A stretch of DNA of 52,705 nt, taken from NCBI GenBank assembly GCA_015485495.1, contig WFTL01000112.1, forward strand, positions 1 through 52,705, written 5' to 3'. Made by a program: the position numbers and the translations under genes. The notes under the pieces are model-generated. The model saw nothing but the letters and a program-made list of their open reading frames with translations, had not been told where the DNA came from and did not search any database. Below, piece after piece: positions 17,014 through 27,072 of this stretch; the first letter of the stretch is position 1; every line of letters begins with the position of its first letter. Source of the DNA: Planctomycetaceae bacterium. Lineage in GTDB: Bacteria; Planctomycetota; Planctomycetia; Planctomycetales; Planctomycetaceae.

Positions 17014-18312
17014 ATGACACGCTTCTGTTCACGCCGCGGCTTTCTTCAGGTTGGCTTCTGTGGCGGAATCGGTCTGAGCCTGCCGGAATTCTTCCGCCTG
17101 CAGTCCGTCCAGGCGGACCTGAAACACTATGAGTCGGTGGAAGGAACGGCGAAATCCGTCATCTTCATCTTTCTGCCTGGCGGCATGGCCCACCAGGAAA
17201 GCTTCGATCCCAAGCCGTACGCTCCGGTCGAATACCGCGGCCCGCTGTCTGCCATCCAGACAAACGTCAGCGGAACAGTGATCAGCCAGATGTGGCAGAA
17301 GACCGCTCAGGTGGCCGACAAACTCGCCATCTGCCGGTCCATGACGCATGGCGAAGCGGCCCATGAACGCGGCACGCACAATATGTTCACGGGATATCGT
17401 CCCAGCCCGGCGCTGACGTTCCCCAGCATGGGCAGCGTGGTCACTCATGAATTCGGCCCGCGGAACAACATTCCGCAGTACATCTGCATACCGAACCAGC
17501 CCAACGAATTCGCCGGCACCGGTTATCTCAGTTCGTCTTACGCCCCGTTCAGTCTGGGAGCCGATCCTGCAGCGAACGGCTTCACGGTCCGCGATCTGAA
17601 ACTGCCGGGCGGAGTGGATTCTCAGCGGTTCGATCGCCGCCGCTCGATTCTCGATCTGGTCAACCAGCAGTTCACCAGCCGCCAGGAAGCGGATGCTCTG
17701 AAAGCGGTGGACACCTTCTACGAACGGGCATACGGCCTGGTCACCTCCCCCCAGGCTCAGGAAGCGTTCGATCTGTCCAAAGAGCCGGATAAGCTGCGGG
17801 ATGAATACGGCCGCAACGCAGCCGGTGCCCGGCTGCTCATGGCGCGCCGCCTGGTGGAAGCAGGAGCACGTTTTGTCACGCTGACCTACGGGGGATGGGA
17901 TCACCACGACAACATCGAGCGCGGGATCAAAGGGCAGGTTCCGGCTCTGGATCAGGCCTTCGCCCGACTCATCCGCGATCTGGACGAACGCGGCCGACTG
18001 GGAGAAACGCTGGTGTGCATCGCCAGCGAGTTCGGCCGGACGCCGAAAATCAACGGCACATCAGGCCGCGACCACTGGCCGAAGGTCTTCAGCGTCGTGC
18101 TGGCCGGCGGAGGCATCAAAGGCGGCATCACTTACGGCACATCCAACGCGACAGCCAGCGAACCGGAAGATGATCCGCTGACGGTCCCGGACTGGGCATC
18201 CACAATTTATCACTGTCTGGGCATTGTTTCCGACAAGGAACTGATGGCTCCGGGAGACCGGCCGATCGAAATCGTCAAAGGGGGCCGGGTCCGTCAGGAA
18301 CTGCTGGCATGA
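17014..18312 (+). CDS. Tat-exported DUF1501 protein
   Basis: The 432-residue product begins MTRFCSRRGFLQVGF. The SRRGFLQ segment (R7, R8) followed by a hydrophobic stretch is a twin-arginine signal. The body is a sulfatase-like DUF1501 domain: IFIFLPGGMAHQESFDPKP near the start, LTYGGWDHHDNIERG in the middle, and CIASEFGRTPKINGTSGRDHWP. The Asp/His-rich motifs are placed as metal ligands in the alkaline-phosphatase-like superfamily. DUF1501 proteins are very abundant in planctomycetes and usually sit next to DUF1549/DUF1553 genes; their reaction is not known. GGAG at 17001-17004 lies nine bases before the chosen ATG, favouring it over the ATG at 16999. It is the first gene of a four-gene exported block. 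Confidence 0.9.
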   Translation: MTRFCSRRGFLQVGFCGGIGLSLPEFFRLQSVQADLKHYESVEGTAKSVIFIFLPGGMAHQESFDPKPYAPVEYRGPLSAIQTNVSGTVISQMWQKTAQVADKLAICRSMTHGEAAHERGTHNMFTGYRPSPALTFPSMGSVVTHEFGPRNNIPQYICIPNQPNEFAGTGYLSSSYAPFSLGADPAANGFTVRDLKLPGGVDSQRFDRRRSILDLVNQQFTSRQEADALKAVDTFYERAYGLVTSPQAQEAFDLSKEPDKLRDEYGRNAAGARLLMARRLVEAGARFVTLTYGGWDHHDNIERGIKGQVPALDQAFARLIRDLDERGRLGETLVCIASEFGRTPKINGTSGRDHWPKVFSVVLAGGGIKGGITYGTSNATASEPEDDPLTVPDWASTIYHCLGIVSDKELMAPGDRPIEIVKGGRVRQELLA

Positions 18313-18442
18313 AGCGGACATCCGGCTGTCGCCTGACTGCCGGACCGTATCAGACCGACCGTCGGAGAACACATCGGACGTGTTCGATCCCGCAAAACAC
18401 GGATGTCTTCGAATCCTGTTTTTCGCGACTGTGAGTTTCCTG

Positions 18443-20896
18443 ATGAGTGGTCTTCTGCGCAGTCTCCTGTTCGTCGTTCTGCTGGCCGGATGGACCGGCC
18501 TGCCGCGCGCGGCCGCGTCCGATCCGAAACTCAGCGTCATTCTGCCGCGCGGCATTCAGCGCGGAACGGAAACAGAAATGACGTTTCGCGGAGCCCGGCT
18601 GAACGATGCGGAAGAGATCTTCTTCTACGAACCGGGCTTTACAGTCAGCAGCATCACGCCCGTCGATGCCAACACGATCAAAGCTGTCGTCCAGGTCGCT
18701 CCCGACTGTGCTCCTGGCGAACACACCGCTCAGATTCGCACGAAATCCGGAATCACGGAATTCCGAACCTTCTTCGTCGGCGACCTGCCGGCCGTTGCCG
18801 AAAAGGAGCCCAATACGACGTTCGAACAGGCCCAGACCATCGAACTGGATTCCATGGTTCTGGGTGTGATCACATCGGAAGACGTCGACTACTTCGCCGT
18901 GCAGTGTTCCAAAGGACAGCGGCTGTCCGTTGAGATTGCGGCCATGCGGCTCGGGCAGGCCTTTTTCGACCCCTACATCGCCATTCTGGACAGCCGGCGG
19001 TTCGAACTGGCGGCCGCTGATGACTCGCCGCTGCTGAAGCAGGATGCTCTGGCATCCGTCATCATCCCGGAAGACGGAACCTACATCATCGAAATCCGCG
19101 ATACGGGATACGGAGGGGCCGGGAATGCACATTACTGTGCCCATATCGGCCGCTTCCCGCGTCCATCGGCCGTGTTTCCTGCCGGCGGACAGGCCGGCCA
19201 GACCGTCGAATTCCGGTTTCTCGGTGATGCGGCCGGTGATCTGACCGTCCAGACCGCACTGCCGGACGATGGCAGAGAAGCGGTGCCGTTCTGGCCTTCG
19301 GATGACCACGGCACCGCGGTGACGCCCCACCTGCTGCGTGTGTCACCCGATCCGAATGCCGTGGAAGTGGAACCCAATCAGACGCTGAACACGGCCACTC
19401 CTGTGGAATTTCCCTGCACGTTCAACGGCATTCTGCAGGAAGACGGCGATGTGGACGTGTATCGCTTCACCGCAAAAAAAGGCCAGGTGTTCGATGTGGA
19501 ATGTTATGCCCGCCGCATTCAGTCACCGGTGGATCCGGTGATGCATCTGTACAAACCGGATAACGGCGTGCTGGCTTCGAACGATGATTCCCGCGGTCCC
19601 GACAGCTATTTTCGGGTCACGATTCCTGCCGACGGAGAATACAGGCTGCGGGTGACGGACCTCCTGGGGAAAGGCGGACCGGAGTACGTGTATCGTGTGG
19701 AGTTTCGCCGGATTCAGCCGTCTCTGACACTCGGAATTCCCCGCGTGGCCCGTTACAGCCAGGATCGTCAGCGGATTTATGTCCCGCGCGGCGGACGTTT
19801 CGCCACGATCATTTCCGCCACCCGGACGGCATTCAGCGGCGAACTGGAACTCATCCCCGAAGGTCTGCCGGAAGGCATCCGCATGGTCGCCCGGACCATG
19901 CCGGCCAGTCTCAACACGATGCCCGTTGTTTTCGAAGCCGCTGCCGATGCACCGCTCAGCGGGGCCCTGGTCGACTTCCGTGCCCGGCTGAAAAGCGACG
20001 AAAAAACCATTGTCGGCGGTTTCCGAAACCGAGCGGACTTCATCATCGCCCAGCCCGGGCAGTCGCTTTATGCCTGGAAGGACGTGGATCGGCTGGCCTT
20101 TGCCGTGGTGGAAGAACTGCCGTTTACCATCGACATCGTTCAGCCGCAGGTTCCGATTGTCCGCAACGGCTCCATGCAGCTGAAAGTGGTCGTCACGAAA
20201 AAAGAAGGGTGGGACGAAGCGATCACAGTCCAGTTTCCGTTCCGGCCGCCGGGAATCGGCGCCCGACCGAACATCACGATTCCGAAAGGAAAGTCTGAAG
20301 GCGTCTATCCCATCAGTGCCAACGGCAACGCGGCACTCGGAAAGTGGCCGGTTTACGCCATCGCCAGCGCCAATGTGAACGGCGCGGCCTGGACCGCATC
20401 CGGCATGGCGACTCTGGAAGTCGCCGAACCGTGGGTCGGCGTCACTCTGGCGAAATCGTCCGTCGAACAGGGCCAGACCACGGAAATCGTCGCCGAAGTT
20501 CAGCTTCTGAAGGAACTGCCCGCTCCGGCAAAAGTCGAACTGCTCGGCCTGCCCCATCACGTCAGCACGAACCCGCTGGAAATCACACCGGACACCAAAG
20601 AACTCGTCTTTCCGATCTCCACCCAGGCCGACAGTCCGGCCGGCACCCACAAGAACATCTTCTGCCGCATCACGGTCGTCCAGAATAACGAACCGATCGT
20701 GCATACACGCGTGGGGAATACCGAACTGCGCATCGACAAACCGCTGCCCAGACCCGTCGCTCAGGCGGCAGCGCCGAAGGAAAAACCGAAACCGCAGTCG
20801 CAGCCGGCTGCAAAGGACAAACCGAAACCCGAGCGCCGGCTGACACGTCTGGAGAAACTCCGTCTGGAGGCCAAAAAACGGGCGTCCGGATCCTGA
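18443..20896 (+). CDS. Secreted protein with two PPC domains
   Basis: The product is 817 residues. A signal peptide (SLLFVVLLAGW, probable cleavage after AAAS) leads into beta-rich sequence. Two bacterial pre-peptidase C-terminal domains are seen at about residues 120-230 (EKEPNTTFEQAQTI, DVDYFAVQCSKGQRLSVEI) and 310-420 (VEPNQTLNTATPV, DVDVYRFTAKKGQVFDVEC). More beta-sandwich segments follow, and the tail is a Lys/Pro/Gln-rich, positively charged low-complexity stretch ending KLRLEAKKRASGS. There is no protease domain, so the PPC domains are not accessory to an enzyme here. It may bind polymers or other cell-surface proteins of the block. An upstream ATG at 18380 is an alternative, but the signal peptide is better placed from 18443. 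Confidence 0.85.
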   Translation: MSGLLRSLLFVVLLAGWTGLPRAAASDPKLSVILPRGIQRGTETEMTFRGARLNDAEEIFFYEPGFTVSSITPVDANTIKAVVQVAPDCAPGEHTAQIRTKSGITEFRTFFVGDLPAVAEKEPNTTFEQAQTIELDSMVLGVITSEDVDYFAVQCSKGQRLSVEIAAMRLGQAFFDPYIAILDSRRFELAAADDSPLLKQDALASVIIPEDGTYIIEIRDTGYGGAGNAHYCAHIGRFPRPSAVFPAGGQAGQTVEFRFLGDAAGDLTVQTALPDDGREAVPFWPSDDHGTAVTPHLLRVSPDPNAVEVEPNQTLNTATPVEFPCTFNGILQEDGDVDVYRFTAKKGQVFDVECYARRIQSPVDPVMHLYKPDNGVLASNDDSRGPDSYFRVTIPADGEYRLRVTDLLGKGGPEYVYRVEFRRIQPSLTLGIPRVARYSQDRQRIYVPRGGRFATIISATRTAFSGELELIPEGLPEGIRMVARTMPASLNTMPVVFEAAADAPLSGALVDFRARLKSDEKTIVGGFRNRADFIIAQPGQSLYAWKDVDRLAFAVVEELPFTIDIVQPQVPIVRNGSMQLKVVVTKKEGWDEAITVQFPFRPPGIGARPNITIPKGKSEGVYPISANGNAALGKWPVYAIASANVNGAAWTASGMATLEVAEPWVGVTLAKSSVEQGQTTEIVAEVQLLKELPAPAKVELLGLPHHVSTNPLEITPDTKELVFPISTQADSPAGTHKNIFCRITVVQNNEPIVHTRVGNTELRIDKPLPRPVAQAAAPKEKPKPQSQPAAKDKPKPERRLTRLEKLRLEAKKRASGS

Positions 20897-21021
20897 CTGT
20901 CTGCCATCGGAAACCGTCCGTCGTGTCGACTGCACCGATCACAACACGTGTTCTGACAGGACAGAAACCACAACCACAGAAATCACAACGGGCACTGTGT
21001 TCGCGGAGGCAAACTGAGGCG

Positions 21022-23457
21022 ATGAAACGAGCGATTCTGACGGCCGGCCTGTGTCTGGCTTCGTGCTTCCCATCCGTTGCGGATGACACCGCCGCCTCGG
21101 TGACATCCATCAGCGTCAGTCCGCCGGACATCCACCTGTCGTCGGCCCGAGATCACCAGTCGATCATCGTGCAGGCCGTTCTGGCCAGCGGACTCACACG
21201 CGATGTCACCACCGAATGCCGCATCACGACTGAGGATGAATCGCTGGTCCGGCTGGAAGGGCAGACATTCTTCGCTGCCAAAGACGGCGATACGACGGTC
21301 ACTGTGGCGTACGGCGAACACACTGTTCAGGTTCCCGTGACAGTCCGGAATGCGGCCGACAATCCGGAACTCAGCTTCCGTCTGGACATCATGCCGATTT
21401 TCATGAAGGCCAGCTGCAACAACGGAAGCTGTCACGGAGCGGCCCGGGGCAAGGACGGTTTTCGGCTGTCTCTGTTCGGATTCGATCCGGCCGGAGACCA
21501 TTTTCGGCTGACCCGCGAACTGCCGGGACGCCGCATCAATCTGGCTCTGCCGGAAGAAAGCCTGCTCATCGAAAAAGCCTGCGGCCTGGTGCCTCATTCG
21601 GGAGGCAAACGGATCGAGCCCGGAGGAGACAAATACAGTACACTCATTCGCTGGCTGAAGGCGGGAGCTCCCGATGACCCGGGAGAAGTTCCTTCGGTTG
21701 TGAGTCTGGAACTGTATCCGCGGGAAGCGGTGCTGGATGGGGAAGGGGAAACACAGCGGCTGACCGTACGGGCGAAGTATTCTGACGGAACCGACCGCGA
21801 CGTGACGAGTCTGGCGTGGTTCAGCACAAGTAACGAAACGTCGGCAGCCGTCGACCAGACGGGAATCGTCACGGGCCATGACCGCGGTGAAGCCTTTGTC
21901 ATGGCCCGCTTCGAAACGCATACCGTGGGTTCCGATTTCATCGTCCTGCCGAAGGGGCTCGAGTACACCGACCCTCAGACACCCGAATTCAACTACATCG
22001 ACACGCTGGTCCATGCGAAGCTGCGCAAGCTGAGGATCGTTCCGTCTGAAGTGTGTTCAGATGAGGAGTTTCTGCGTCGGGTCTTCATCGACATCACGGG
22101 AACACTGCCGACGCCGGAAGAGCGGGCGGCGTTCCTGGCCGACGAACAACCCGACAAACGCGCCCGGATCATCGATGAACTGCTGGAACGCAAAGAATTC
22201 GTAGACATCTGGGTCATGAAATGGGCCGAACTGCTGCAGGTCCGCACGATTCCCAATCGCGTCACCAAAAAACCGATGCTGCGGTACTACGGCTGGCTCC
22301 GGGAAAAGATCGCGGGCAACACGCCGATCGACCAGATGGTGCGGGAACTGCTGGCTTCAAAGGGAGGCACGTTTTCCAGCCCCGCCACGAACTACTACCA
22401 GACCGAGACAGAAACCCTGAAGGTGGCGGAAAATGTGGCTCAGGTGTTTCTGGGAATGCGTATCCAGTGTGCCCAGTGCCACAACCATCCGTTCGACCGC
22501 TGGACGATGGACGACTACTACAGCTTCGCCGCTTTCTTTTCTCAGATCGGCCGCAAGAAAAGCGACGATCCCAGGGAAACCGTCGTGTACAACAAAGGCG
22601 GCGGGGAGGTGAAGCATCCGGTCGGAGGCCGCGTGATGCCGCCGAAGTTTCTGGGCGGCGCGGTGCCGGATGTCAAAGGAAAAGACCGTCGCGAAGTCCT
22701 GGCCGCCTGGCTGGCGTCTCCGGACAACCCCTGGTTCGCCACGAACCTGGCCAACATCGTGTGGGCCCATTTCTTCGGACGGGGCATCATCGATCCGGTC
22801 GATGACGTGCGCGTCAGCAATCCGCCGGTGAACGGACCGCTGCTTGAAGAGCTGGGAAAACGGTTCACATCGTACAACTACGATTTCCGTCAGCTCGTAC
22901 GGGACATCTGCAATTCCCGCACCTACCAGCTGTCCACCGTCACGAACGAAACGAACGCGTCCGACCACAGCAATTTCGCTCACGCCGAACTGCGGCGGAT
23001 GCGGGCCGAAGTGCTTCTGGACTGCATCACTCAGGTCACATCGACGAACAACAAGTTTCCCGGCCTTCCGGTCGGTGCCCGAGCCGTCCATGTGGCCGAT
23101 GGCAACACATCCACCTACTTCCTGACAACCTTCGGACGCGCCAAACGGGCGACGGTCTGTTCCTGCGAAGTGAAAATGGAACCCAATCTGTCTCAGGCTC
23201 TGCACCTGATCAACGGAGAAACCACCAATCAGAAGATCCGCCAGGGTGGACTCATTCCCGGACTGCTTAAAGAAGGAAAGACGCCTGAACAGATCATTCA
23301 GGAACTGTACCTGCGGTGTCTGACCCGCCTGCCCACCGAACAGGAAATGGCCCGGCTGCTGGAAACGGTCCAGGCCGGTGGCGACGATGCGACCCAGACG
23401 CTTGAAGACATCTTCTGGTCCCTGCTCAATTCCCGGGAGTTTCTGTTCAATCACTGA
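21022..23457 (+). CDS. Exported Ig-like/DUF1549/DUF1553 haem-motif protein
   Basis: This 811-residue protein starts with a signal peptide (MKRAILTAGLCLASCF). An Ig-like Big_2 domain lies at about 25-110. A CNNGSCH motif (C132, C137, H138) has CX4CH spacing. A second Ig-like domain at about 235-315 is followed by DUF1549 with a canonical CAQCH motif (C483, C486, H487) in CAQCHNHPFDRW. DUF1553 forms the C-terminus (EELGKRFTSYNYDFRQLVRDI, SREFLFNH). These are the marks of a planctomycete surface or periplasmic cytochrome-like protein. Function is unknown; electron transfer is inferred from the haem motifs. It lies 125 bases after the PPC gene. ATG at 21022 follows GGAGG at a 12-base distance. 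Confidence 0.9.
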   Translation: MKRAILTAGLCLASCFPSVADDTAASVTSISVSPPDIHLSSARDHQSIIVQAVLASGLTRDVTTECRITTEDESLVRLEGQTFFAAKDGDTTVTVAYGEHTVQVPVTVRNAADNPELSFRLDIMPIFMKASCNNGSCHGAARGKDGFRLSLFGFDPAGDHFRLTRELPGRRINLALPEESLLIEKACGLVPHSGGKRIEPGGDKYSTLIRWLKAGAPDDPGEVPSVVSLELYPREAVLDGEGETQRLTVRAKYSDGTDRDVTSLAWFSTSNETSAAVDQTGIVTGHDRGEAFVMARFETHTVGSDFIVLPKGLEYTDPQTPEFNYIDTLVHAKLRKLRIVPSEVCSDEEFLRRVFIDITGTLPTPEERAAFLADEQPDKRARIIDELLERKEFVDIWVMKWAELLQVRTIPNRVTKKPMLRYYGWLREKIAGNTPIDQMVRELLASKGGTFSSPATNYYQTETETLKVAENVAQVFLGMRIQCAQCHNHPFDRWTMDDYYSFAAFFSQIGRKKSDDPRETVVYNKGGGEVKHPVGGRVMPPKFLGGAVPDVKGKDRREVLAAWLASPDNPWFATNLANIVWAHFFGRGIIDPVDDVRVSNPPVNGPLLEELGKRFTSYNYDFRQLVRDICNSRTYQLSTVTNETNASDHSNFAHAELRRMRAEVLLDCITQVTSTNNKFPGLPVGARAVHVADGNTSTYFLTTFGRAKRATVCSCEVKMEPNLSQALHLINGETTNQKIRQGGLIPGLLKEGKTPEQIIQELYLRCLTRLPTEQEMARLLETVQAGGDDATQTLEDIFWSLLNSREFLFNH

Positions 23458-23660
23458 TTCAGCGGAATGCCGGAACCGGCGGGAGAGGAAGCATGATGGC
23501 TGTGCCTGCCTCTCCGGTCCGGTTGCACTCAGGTTTTGGGTTAATCCGGAGACTCTGCACAGACTTTCCTGACCAGCCGGACTGTGTCGATAGATTCTTT
23601 GACCCGTCCCGTCGGGATCCCGCCCGCCTGCCTTCCTTCCTGCTTCATCTGAGAACGACC

Positions 23661-26366
23661 ATGACGCGATCCATCGCCACCTGTCTGCTGCTGCTGCTGA
23701 CGCTGACTTCGACCGGACGCGGCGCTGAAGAACAGATCAATTACACCGATCACGTGCGGCCCATTTTTCGGGAAAAGTGCTTCAGCTGCCACAACACGAA
23801 CAAGAAGTCTGCCAGCCTGGACCTGACCAGCTTCACGTCTCTGATGCAGGGCGGAGCGTCGGGGGAAGTCATTTCTCCCGGCAGTGCGGAAGACAGTTAT
23901 CTGTTCATGCTCATCACCCATGAAAGCGAACCTTTCATGCCTCCGGATTCCGATCGGATTCCGGACGCGATGATCGATGTGGTGCGCCGCTGGATCGATG
24001 GGGGAGCTCCGGAAACTTCGTCCAGCAAAGTCATGCTGCCGAAGAAGCCGAAAATCGATCTGAGCGTTTCTGTGTCGGCCGGCGAACGTCCCGAAGGTCC
24101 TCCGCCCGTCCCGGATGTGCTCAGTCTCGAACCGGTCGTCCACACACCGGCCACGACCGCCGTATCAGCCATCGCCACCAGCCCCTGGGCGCCGGTGGCC
24201 GCCATCGGTGGTCAGAAACAGGTTGTGCTGTACGACACCCGATCTCTGGAAACCGTCGGCATTCTTCCTTTTCCGGAGGGCCAGGTTCGTGTTCTGCGTT
24301 TCAGCCGAAACGGATCGCTGCTGCTGGCCGGCGGAGGCCGTGGGGGAGCCCGCGGACTGGCCGTCGTCTGGGATGTCCGAACGGGCGAACGCCTGTTTTC
24401 CGTCGGTGACGAACTGGATGAAGTGCTCGCCGCCGATATCAGTGCCGATCACGAATTCGTGGCTCTGGGAGGACCTCAGAAGATCGTCCGCGTCTATGCC
24501 ACCGGAACCGGGGAACTCGTCTGGGAAGTCACCAAACACACCGACTGGGTCACGGCACTGGAATTCAGTCCGGACTCCGTTCTTTTGGCAACGGGAGATC
24601 GCGCCGGCGGTCTGCATGTCTGGGAAGCCTTCACGGGACGCCACTACGCGGTTCTGAACGGTCATTCCGGATTCATCACCGGGGTTTCCTGGCGGATCGA
24701 CAGCAACGTTCTCGCATCAGCCTCTCAGGACGGCAGCATCCGTCTGTGGGAAATGGAAAACGGAAAATCCATCAAATCGTGGACGGCACATGGTGGAGGC
24801 GTGTCGTCCGTGGAATTCTGTCGGGACGGACGCATCGTCTCCTGCGGACGCGACAAACTCACGAAGCTGTGGGATCAGAACGGCAAACAGCTGGTCGCCT
24901 TCGAAGCATTCGCCGATCTGGCCGTGAGCGTGTCGCACTGCGATGAAACCAATCGCGTCATCGCCGGAGACTGGATCGGTTCCATCCGCGCCTGGAACGC
25001 CGCTGACGGCAAACGCATCGGAAACCTGACCGCCAATCCGCCTCTGCTGGCCACACGTCTGGCACAGGCCGAAGCCGCTCTGCCGGCCGCTCTGGAAAAT
25101 CAGAAGAAAGCGGACGCCGCTTACAGCGAAACGGCCGCCGCCCACAAAATGCAGTCAGATAAACTGGCTGCCGCTCAGAAAACACTGGCAGCGGCCCGGA
25201 AGGCTGTGGCCGAACTGACGAAGCAGAAAGAAGCACGCGAACCGGAACTGGCCGAACTCCGGAAAAAACTCACCTCGGAAGAAGCCGCCCTGACGGCTCT
25301 GCAGAAGGCCGTCCCCAGTCTGAAACAGGCTGCCGACAATGCATCAGCGGCCGCCCAGGCGCTTCCTCAGGACAAGGAACTGGCAGAAGCGGCATCCGGG
25401 ATGGAAGCGGCTCTGAAAGAGAAAACGGAATCTGCAGCCGCTCTGCAGAAGACGATCGAAGCCCGCAAACAGGACATCGCCGCCCGCCAGGCCGCTCTGA
25501 AGGAACTGCAGACGAAACTGTCTGAGCAGCAGCAGACGGCCGCCAGTGCGGAAACAGCCGCCAAAGAAGCCACGGCCGCTCTGGAATCGCTCAAACCCCG
25601 ACTCGAACAGACCCGGCAGGCGAAAGCCGCAGCCGATGCCCAGGTGGGCCGACTGCAGGCCGAAATCGAGCGATGGAAACAGTACATCGCCCTGCGCGAC
25701 GAACTGTCCGTTCAGCAGCAGAAAAAGGCGGTTCAGGAAGAGCGCCAGATCGCTCTGCTCACCGCTCAGGCCGCTCTGGATGAACATCAGCAGAAAATCG
25801 ATGCCGTTCAGAAGACCATCACGACTCATGAACAGACAGTAACCGGCCACCGGAAGCAGATTGAGGAACTGCAGCAGCGCATTGCCACGGCGAAGAAGCA
25901 GGCCGAACAGCAGCAGCAGATTGCGAAAAAGCATGAGCAGGCCGCCCCGCCCATCAGCCAGGCTATCTCACAGATTCAGGAAGCTCTGAAACAACTGCCG
26001 GACGATCCGTCCGTACAGGCGGCTCTGACCAGCCTGAAGACCGCCATGGAAATGAACCAGAAAGCTCTGGCAGCCGCGCAGAAAGCCGTCGCAGACGCGA
26101 AGGAAGCGATTCAGAAAGACGAAGCCGCAGTAGCCGCCGCCATGGCAGCCATCAAACAGACTCAGGAAAAACAGGCAGCCGAACAGAAAAAACTGGATGC
26201 TCTGAAAGCAGCCCAGGAACCCCTGGCTGCCGCCGTCAGGACCGCTCAGCAGGCCTACGACGCGGCCGCGAAAGAGTATGAACAGGCCACTCAGATCGTG
26301 GAAAACCGGCGGCGTCAGATTCGCCCGGACACTCAGGTGACTCAAACGGACGGAAACACACCATAA
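23661..26366 (+). CDS. PSCyt1-WD40-coiled-coil exported protein
   Basis: The 901-residue product has a signal peptide (SIATCLLLLLTLTSTGRGA) and a PSCyt1 cytochrome domain with CFSCH (C40, C43, H44) and FMPPDSDRIPD. Residues about 160-450 form a WD40 propeller with GH/WD-type repeats such as GHSGFITGVSW and DGSIRLWEMENGKSIKSW. Residues about 455-890 are a long Ala/Gln/Lys/Glu-rich coiled coil. Two related segments, ALPQDKELAEAASGMEAALK and QLPDDPSVQAALTSLKTAME, suggest an internal duplication within it. The coiled coil could anchor or space the haem and propeller head at the cell surface (inference). ATG at 23661 is chosen because it starts the signal peptide; an upstream in-frame start adds unconvincing sequence. 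Confidence 0.88.
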   Translation: MTRSIATCLLLLLTLTSTGRGAEEQINYTDHVRPIFREKCFSCHNTNKKSASLDLTSFTSLMQGGASGEVISPGSAEDSYLFMLITHESEPFMPPDSDRIPDAMIDVVRRWIDGGAPETSSSKVMLPKKPKIDLSVSVSAGERPEGPPPVPDVLSLEPVVHTPATTAVSAIATSPWAPVAAIGGQKQVVLYDTRSLETVGILPFPEGQVRVLRFSRNGSLLLAGGGRGGARGLAVVWDVRTGERLFSVGDELDEVLAADISADHEFVALGGPQKIVRVYATGTGELVWEVTKHTDWVTALEFSPDSVLLATGDRAGGLHVWEAFTGRHYAVLNGHSGFITGVSWRIDSNVLASASQDGSIRLWEMENGKSIKSWTAHGGGVSSVEFCRDGRIVSCGRDKLTKLWDQNGKQLVAFEAFADLAVSVSHCDETNRVIAGDWIGSIRAWNAADGKRIGNLTANPPLLATRLAQAEAALPAALENQKKADAAYSETAAAHKMQSDKLAAAQKTLAAARKAVAELTKQKEAREPELAELRKKLTSEEAALTALQKAVPSLKQAADNASAAAQALPQDKELAEAASGMEAALKEKTESAAALQKTIEARKQDIAARQAALKELQTKLSEQQQTAASAETAAKEATAALESLKPRLEQTRQAKAAADAQVGRLQAEIERWKQYIALRDELSVQQQKKAVQEERQIALLTAQAALDEHQQKIDAVQKTITTHEQTVTGHRKQIEELQQRIATAKKQAEQQQQIAKKHEQAAPPISQAISQIQEALKQLPDDPSVQAALTSLKTAMEMNQKALAAAQKAVADAKEAIQKDEAAVAAAMAAIKQTQEKQAAEQKKLDALKAAQEPLAAAVRTAQQAYDAAAKEYEQATQIVENRRRQIRPDTQVTQTDGNTP

Positions 26367-26484: not shown

Positions 26485-27072
26485 GTGATTTCTCCTGCTT
26501 CTGCCATCTCCCGGACCGCAGAACCGACACGCCAGGTGCTCGTGCGCTACGGGACGATTCCTCAGGTGGCCCGCTTCAGTCCGCCGGCCGCAGGAACCGA
26601 CCGCGTGCAACGGGGATCTCGGGTGATCGTTCGAACCGACCGCGGTCTGGAAGTCGGGGAAGTTCTGGAGACGGTCGCCCCTGCTTCGTCGGCGGACAGC
26701 CACGCACCGGTCGATGCCGAACGCATCGAACGCGTCGCCACACCGGAAGATCTGTCCCGCCAGGAACGCTGCCGGAAGCAGGCGGCCGATCTGTTTCCCG
26801 TGTGGCTGCAGCGGATTGGTGAATGGGATCTGGATCTGCAGCTCGTCGACGTCGAAGTTCCGCTGGATGAAGAACACGTCATTCTGTACGTCCTGAACGA
26901 TCGCGGTGCTGAGACGACACGACTGGCACTGCTGGCAGCCGCCGCGGGACACGGCATCGTGACCGTCCAGCCCGTGGCGGCAGAAGGCATTGTGGCCGGT
27001 CATCCCGGAGGCTGTGGGTCCGGCTGCGGCAGTTCGGGCTGCGGCGGGTCAGGTGGAACCTGCCATTCCTGA
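26485..27072 (+). CDS. PSP1-domain (RicT/YaaT-like) protein
   Basis: The 195-residue product has the PSP1 pattern: RYGTIPQVARF near the start, RGSRVIVRTDRGLEVGEVLE, and RKQAADLFPVWLQRIGEWDLDLQLVDVEV before LDEEHVILYVLN. The family includes Bacillus RicT (YaaT), an iron-sulfur-associated subunit affecting RNase Y and phosphorelay activity. The C-terminus is a Gly/Ser-rich tail with four Cys (GGCGSGCGSSGCGGSGGTC) that could bind a metal or cluster. Start is GTG at 26485, with no better in-frame start nearby. It leads a three-gene run with an unknown protein and ispD. Confidence 0.82.
   Translation: MISPASAISRTAEPTRQVLVRYGTIPQVARFSPPAAGTDRVQRGSRVIVRTDRGLEVGEVLETVAPASSADSHAPVDAERIERVATPEDLSRQERCRKQAADLFPVWLQRIGEWDLDLQLVDVEVPLDEEHVILYVLNDRGAETTRLALLAAAAGHGIVTVQPVAAEGIVAGHPGGCGSGCGSSGCGGSGGTCHS

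Follow-up and report, generated by a model that had tools for sequence, protein, structure and literature searches.

The four-gene block

Here we examine a block of four genes on a 52,705-nucleotide contig of a Planctomycetaceae bacterium (WFTL01000112.1, assembly GCA_015485495.1), the whole of which is called the window below. The four reading frames are all open and lie on the + strand, and their products are called P1 to P4. P1 (17014..18312, 432 amino acids) is a DUF1501 protein, and P2 (18443..20896, 817 amino acids) contains PPC and Ig-like domains, with a Pro-rich linker near its C-terminus. P3 (21022..23457, 811 amino acids) consists, in order, of an Ig-like domain, a haem segment of the CX4CH type, a second Ig-like domain (Big_2), PSCyt2 (DUF1549, with a CXXCH motif) and PSD1 (DUF1553). 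P4 (23661..26366, 901 amino acids) combines a PSCyt1 haem domain, a WD40 propeller and a coiled-coil-like tail. As a system, the block is placed with the already known DUF1501 module. What is new here is the relation between PSD1 and DUF1800, the gene fusions and the gene-order survey; from the fusions, which occur in related loci, the four products probably associate physically.

The domain assignments are all over the Pfam cut-off: DUF1501 with 395 bits (PF07394, E 4e-118), PPC with 57, PSCyt2 with 171 (PF07583) and PSD1 with 131 (PF07587), these two over the gathering score, Big_2 with 31, PSCyt1 with 51 and WD40 with 79. For P2, the ATG at 18443 is a likelier start than the frame start at 18380, the start of P3 was corrected to 21022, and for P4 the ATG at 23661, which lies ahead of a signal-like stretch, was preferred over 23493. 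The resulting gaps are 130, 125 and 203 bp, the medians in 45 relatives being 136, 103 and 97 bp with starts chosen by script. The four genes are thus close together on one strand, as had been predicted originally. A scan for sigma-70-type sites found none between P1 and P4 and none 5′ of P1 (1 site in 15 kb); since no site was found 5′ of P1 either, the scan is uninformative on operon structure.

All four proteins have N-termini of the export type, also part of the original prediction. As judged by eye, without a signal predictor, the signal is of the twin-arginine type in P1 (SRRGFL) and of the hydrophobic Sec type in P2, P3 and P4. Conservation was followed in alignments that include the window and hold 43 of the 48 P1, 32 of the 49 P2, 48 of the 55 P3 and 33 of the 57 P4 sequences in hand. 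The arginine pair of P1 is present in 41 of its 43 sequences, the other two being gapped at this position.

We now turn to the haem motifs, which had been predicted for two of the proteins and were found in P3 and P4. The first motif of P3 is CNNGSCH (CX4CH, residues 132-138, + strand 21415..21435) and the second is CAQCH (CXXCH, residues 483-487, + strand 22468..22482), with coordinates computed from the start at 21022. Cys132, Cys137 and His138, as well as Cys483, Cys486 and His487, are invariant in all 48 aligned sequences; PF07583 and PF07587 are both matched by the same 48 (E up to 0.1), and the CXXCH motif of PSCyt2 is present in every one of them. His192, which follows the CX4CH motif, is also invariant and could, judging from this conservation, be the second ligand of that haem. 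An invariant Cys713-x-Cys715 (23158-23166, 48/48) was further seen in PSD1, in a low-confidence part of the structural model.

In P4, the motif CFSCH (CXXCH, residues 40-44, + strand 23778..23792) opens the PSCyt1 match (23778-23948), and its two cysteines and histidine are invariant in 33 of 33 sequences. Met93-Pro-Pro is invariant in the aligned sequences as well and is likely the segment that provides the sixth ligand. The tail of P4 is about 440 amino acids long, 58% Ala/Glu/Lys/Gln and coiled-coil-like, and its length differs between relatives. The likeness of the WD40 part to eukaryotic families was set aside as generic.

It is plausible from the domain content of P2, which is PPC and Ig-like only, that this protein is a scaffold. 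PF04151 (PPC) is found in 32 of 32 aligned sequences, and so is a C-terminal motif, [LMV][TSN][RP][LI][EQ]xLR, that looks like a docking peptide. The model of domain III of the quinohaemoprotein amine dehydrogenase alpha subunit is matched by 10 of the 32 sequences (best E 3.7e-8). For P3, the fold of the second Ig domain matches LigA (Z 15.2) and the S-layer protein SbsC (Z about 11). The sequence and fold searches with P3 gave only Ig domains and rows at chance level, and PSCyt2-PSD1 was barely probed by them, so that a new fold is not claimed for it.

Conservation of the gene order

The survey of near relatives covered 58 genomes, with 14 P4 candidates scored in each and a strong match defined as E below 1e-120. 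Such a match was found in 53 genomes, the other five being G001, G002, G012, G041 and G043; G012, which is 79% complete, does contain a P2 of 55% identity. A clean score threshold for P4 orthologues was ruled out, as the second copies in G047, G028 and G031 outscore the match in G009, and synteny was therefore used to decide. The second copies (L083-L085) were excluded from the order counts; L083 nonetheless has all four genes in order. Among the 53 loci, 45 have P1-P2-P3-P4 in order on one strand, seven are cut by contig ends and one (L069) is without P1 and P2. In one of the cut loci (L072), P3 and P4 are about 3.5 kb apart and the usual adjacency is broken. The conservation of gene order, which the original prediction had named as its test, is thus found in the large majority of these relatives.

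In a second scan, genome contigs were compared with a P3 profile and the best 80 of 578 loci were inspected, a choice that is biased towards true orthologues. The same order was found in 52 of them (nine being repeats of the first set), 18 are cut by contig ends, and in six P4 is divergent and adjoins P1, so that a single transcript is not strictly required. These six loci are verrucomicrobial, and three further verrucomicrobial loci (L157, L158, L161) have the standard order. The order is accordingly kept across families and two phyla while the flanking genes vary, and this indicates that the block is more than a chance arrangement.

As to the spread of the block, P3 matches of at least 715 bits are present in 71 of 392 Planctomycetota genomes, namely in 39 of the 40 listed members of the class (own genome included) versus 32 of 352 others. 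These counts were taken from the listed matches, with two candidates scored per genome, and 283 genomes with no match stand outside this listing. One class member, G399, has no P3 match of at least 715 bits, and a second search agreed. In a tree of 67 P3 sequences, 12 verrucomicrobial and two planctomycete sequences group together (support 0.76) within the planctomycete set; a transfer between phyla is possible. A parity rule removed about half of the second-scan planctomycete loci from this tree, and 13 loci from the first set were chosen manually; its outgroup paralogues are not united in a single clade, and the ingroup node is supported at 0.59.

Paralogues and gene fusions

The genome of the organism (4.67 Mb) contains 41 stretches matching DUF1501, 34 matching PSD1, 28 matching PSCyt1 and three matching PPC, one of the latter over the cut-off. 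Of the DUF1501 matches, 26 lie less than 5 kb from a PSD1 match. In 23 of these pairs the two share a strand, with PSD1 ahead of DUF1501, in two DUF1501 comes first (the present block and a pair on contig C8), and in one the strands are opposite. Within this large paralogous set the present block is therefore an unusual arrangement. Another locus of the same genome (L167, contig C4, 3498-11783) has consecutive P3-, P2- and P4-like genes, with no DUF1501 gene in the 14 kb taken.

Several related loci carry members of the block joined into single proteins. In three of them, PSCyt1-WD40 is fused to Ig-CX4CH-Ig-PSCyt2-PSD1, with DUF1501 following; the single frames are 1715 (L166), 1788 (L170) and 1658 (L171) amino acids long. 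L166 is in the same genome as the window (contig C153, 3218-10063) and is a single frame with three haem motifs and a further C-terminal part. A fusion of another kind is found in an otherwise orthologous-looking block of a different class (L174, 5213-13705), where P2 and P3 form one frame with P1 before it and P4 after it. The bit scores to the P1-, P2-, P3- and P4-type proteins are here 594, 710, 689 and 342, and PPC, PSCyt2 and PSD1 are all found by Pfam in the fused frame. Its P2-P3 junction has no second signal peptide and is preceded by a version of the C-terminal motif of P2. A P2-P3 fusion is also seen in the more distant L172, whose P2 part is matched by the window protein only. Pfam was used to confirm the fusions in L166, L170 and L174. 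The fusions of P4 with P3 and of P2 with P3 support a physical complex.

The DUF1501 protein

The AlphaFold2 model of P1 has a mean pLDDT (predicted local distance difference test) of 72.1 and a pTM (predicted template modelling score) of 0.77. Comparison of this model with known structures by VIA-align gave ENPP6 as the best match (Z 16.9, root-mean-square deviation 3.7, 239 aligned residues, 12% identity), followed by PafA, nucleotide pyrophosphatases/phosphodiesterases (NPPs) and sulfatases, and the best 50 matches are all phosphatases, phosphodiesterases or sulfatase-type enzymes. Foldseek gave 60 matches at E of at most 0.001, again from the alkaline-phosphatase superfamily. At the level of Pfam, Phosphodiest is matched weakly by 33 of the 43 P1 sequences (best 0.002) and Sulfatase, also weakly, by 16 of the 43; sequence searches against the PDB sequences gave nothing convincing. 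P1 is thus predicted, on the basis of the model, to have a fold of the alkaline-phosphatase/sulfatase type.

Members of the alkaline-phosphatase superfamily have a two-metal site, an SDHG motif and a Ser, Thr or Cys nucleophile. When motifs and secondary structure are considered together, the corresponding positions of P1 seem to be changed: the first Asp would be replaced by Pro55, SDHG by SEFG and the nucleophile by His117. SEFG was aligned with SDHG also in an insignificant profile match (E 0.9). On this motif reading, the two-metal site appears to be incomplete in DUF1501. All 30 of the DUF1501 proteins encoded beside DUF1800, the subject of the next section, share with P1 the residues H117, D296, H298, E339, F340, R342, D353 and H354.

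PSD1 and DUF1800

Pfam DUF1800 is matched weakly by 27 of the 48 P3 sequences (best 9.3e-5), and PSD5 and PSD2 are matched by 14 of the 48 each. A profile comparison of the whole of PSCyt2-PSD1 with 30 planctomycetal DUF1800 proteins by hhalign gave a probability of 89.4% in local mode (E 2e-6, score 57.8, 198 columns) and 90.8% over 414 columns in global mode. Among the controls, none of 20 column shuffles scored above 23.9, reversing the alignment gave 18.7, and unrelated alignments stayed at or below 26.8, except for that of P4 (see below). A relation of the whole of PSCyt2-PSD1 to DUF1800 was rejected once the parts were compared separately, the signal being confined to PSD1, which alone reaches 92.0% (local) and 95.8% (global). 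Likewise, the global alignment places CAQCH against the NENYARELxELHTLG loop of DUF1800, and this placement is not claimed, since the signal comes from PSD1 only. As judged from these profile comparisons, the PSD1 domain of P3 and DUF1800 are remotely related. No statement of such a kinship appears in the available passages of the DUF1501/DUF1800 literature.

The 30 DUF1800 loci are the best matches of a search in 149 genomes (88 positive) and not a random sample. All 30 have a DUF1501-like gene in the 1.5 kb on either side, with E between 5e-21 and 3e-6, and none of the 30 DUF1800 proteins contains CXXCH or CX4CH. Both DUF1501 and DUF1800 are also matched in the genome of Caulobacter vibrioides.

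Proposed function and alternatives

On the basis of these results, we propose that P1 to P4 form one multi-protein envelope complex that couples the DUF1501 protein to c-type haems, to which we assign a probability of roughly 45%. The core would be the pair of P1, with its twin-arginine signal and alkaline-phosphatase-superfamily fold, and P3, with its DUF1800-related PSD1 and two haem motifs. P2, through its PPC and Ig-like domains, and P4, with the mono-haem PSCyt1, propeller and coiled coil, would hold this core together and reach outwards. The substrate of P1 and P3 would be an envelope component or a polymer, and electrons would pass between the haems of P3 and that of P4 (His/Met, by way of the invariant Met-Pro-Pro) and then to a periplasmic acceptor. 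In this scheme we infer the formation of the complex in this organism, the haem loading, the direction of the electrons, the substrate and the location. The original prediction had suggested a surface complex for electron transfer or polymer handling. One conserved unit, likely a complex, stands from this, given the gene order and the fusions; the surface location and the chemistry have found no support.

It is important to point out that several observations speak against the proposed complex. Most of the fusions sit in paralogues of about 40% identity or lower, and a possible P4-P2 case, a PSCyt1-WD40 frame of the same genome (L169), is weak (E 4e-8) and has no PPC match. Once duplicates are removed, the second scan leaves 71 loci, of which four (L132, L145, L152, L155) are without members of the block, and a contig end is no explanation. 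The congeners G001 and G002 have no orthologues of P2, P3 and P4, the best identities being 28-32% for P2 and 40-41% for P3; since neither of the congeners searched has them, the block is dispensable. Concerning the structures, P1 reaches low TM-scores in Foldseek (by query length, 0.25-0.39 among the matches listed), its model is least certain around its centre, where the loops are of low confidence, and the model of P3 is least certain around the haem motifs. As to DUF1800, the P3 of the window has no listed PF08811 match at E up to 0.1, and the control alignment of P3 with P4 scored 35.6 (11.7%), over 22 columns that surround the haem motif common to both. PSCyt2 alone gave only 0.8% (local) and 3.3% (global) against DUF1800, within the range of 10 shuffles, so that the relation is supported for PSD1 and not for the haem-bearing half. 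Finally, the action on a polymer is taken from the literature context only.

P3-like stretches in general are numerous in the two congeners, with 153 in G001 and 159 in G002 versus 62 in the genome studied here.

We have also considered that the block encodes a structural assembly of the envelope or surface, that is, a wall or adhesion layer in which DUF1501 would be a pseudo-enzyme and the haems would be structural or minor. Much of the sequence is indeed of the adhesion or scaffold type, as the likeness of the Ig domain of P3 to LigA and SbsC, the PPC domain, the propeller and the coiled coil all illustrate, and an apparently incomplete two-metal site would agree with a pseudo-enzyme. However, no aligned sequence has lost any of the three haem motifs or Met-Pro-Pro, and the fact that H117, D296, H298, E339, R342, D353 and H354 are the same in all 30 of the distant DUF1501 proteins looks like retained chemistry. 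We consider this assembly unlikely, although it is the strongest of the alternatives.

Another option is a redox locus for glycan processing, as proposed for other PSCyt loci, whose products would oxidise or cleave carbohydrate. It could draw on the PSCyt genes of metagenome-assembled genomes of Verrucomicrobia, which can carry carbohydrate-binding modules (CBMs) and adjoin sulfatases (PMC5615132, in the passages available), and on the transfer of DUF1501 and DUF1800 genes along with bacterial chitin synthases, described in the available part of PMC5122149. However, the surroundings of the present block do not point in this direction. Open reading frames in the flanks of 136 loci (including nine repeats and three second copies) were grouped into families by single linkage at E 1e-15, with those of more than 60 bits to P1-P4 or overlapping the block excluded. 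The commonest family is found at only 12 of the 136 loci and a sulfatase-like one, recognized by eye, at 11, and no fifth conserved partner was found among them. The families that Pfam lists for the four proteins (for P4, the best 25 of 38) do not include a CBM either. This option is likewise improbable in our judgement, and no better placed than the preceding one.

The last possibility, four envelope genes that are mere neighbours with independent functions, could account for the divergent P4 of the six verrucomicrobial loci and for the P3-P2-P4-like set of L167, but is very improbable considering that the order is kept across families and two phyla despite the changing flanks and that member types are fused in related loci.

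Going beyond the proposed complex, DUF1501 together with PSCyt2-PSD1 may be the haem-bearing branch of a wider DUF1501/DUF1800 system, an idea that we put forward tentatively and with less confidence than the complex. DUF1501 would provide an alkaline-phosphatase fold with an invariant His at the nucleophile position, and its helical, DUF1800-like partner would be joined in planctomycetes to c-type haem domains, and here wired to a second cytochrome with a propeller. If this is true, one mechanism would lie behind dozens of paralogues per planctomycete genome. As its arrangement is kept in most of the class, the present block is a good place to seek the function of DUF1501 and PSD1.

Outside the block, on its 3′ side, positions 26485-27072 encode a PSP1/RicT-like protein with a Gly/Cys-rich C-terminal tail (GGCGSGCGSSGCGGSGGTC).

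Comparison with known systems

The PSCyt genes and their neighbours have been discussed before (PMC5615132, passages available), in a paper that also deals with porin-multihaem cytochrome conduits. The present block resembles these conduits in having exported c-type haem proteins. It differs from them in that each of its haem proteins carries one or two haem motifs, and the families that Pfam lists for P1-P4 and for four neighbours (for P4, the best 25 of 38) do not include a porin. Quinohaemoprotein amine dehydrogenase resembles the block in combining c haem with a propeller. Its chain is also among the fold matches of the P3 Ig domain (Z 9.5), the likeness being at the level of the Ig-like domain only; its other subunits were not searched for.

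Much closer is the DUF1501 module itself. Genomic clusters that contain DUF1501 and have signal peptides are attributed to Kamneva et al. 2012 for bacteria of the PVC (Planctomycetes, Verrucomicrobia, Chlamydiae) group in the available passages of PMC4452313, PMC4960237 and PMC5122149, and, according to the passages at hand from PMC5587647, the WD40 genes of planctomycetes often have DUF1501 beside them. The likeness to the block, as far as these excerpts go, lies in a conserved cluster around DUF1501 with several signal-peptide members in PVC bacteria. The fusions, the DUF1800 link and the fold of P1 are unmentioned in the excerpts on the module. The 2012 abstract reportedly describes the module as membrane-targeted and involved in electron transport. 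The module is also reported to occur preferentially in PVC species that have intracellular membranes; for the block, the corresponding observation is the class bias of the P3 matches described above. In the main-text passages available from the essential-gene papers on Planctopirus limnophila and Verrucomicrobium spinosum, the genes of the block are not named.

The gene pairs of PSCyt2-PSD1 and DUF1501 share their partner families with the block. In the pairs PSD1 is usually first, whereas in the block DUF1501 is first and the PPC gene lies between the two. Finally, in the DUF1501/DUF1800 pair the DUF1501 protein has the centre residues of P1, and the PSD1 of P3 would be remotely related to its DUF1800, which, unlike P3, has no haem motif (0/30). 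The link between PSD1 and DUF1800 ties the block to a gene pair that is found in bacteria amenable to culture, and this makes the question testable.

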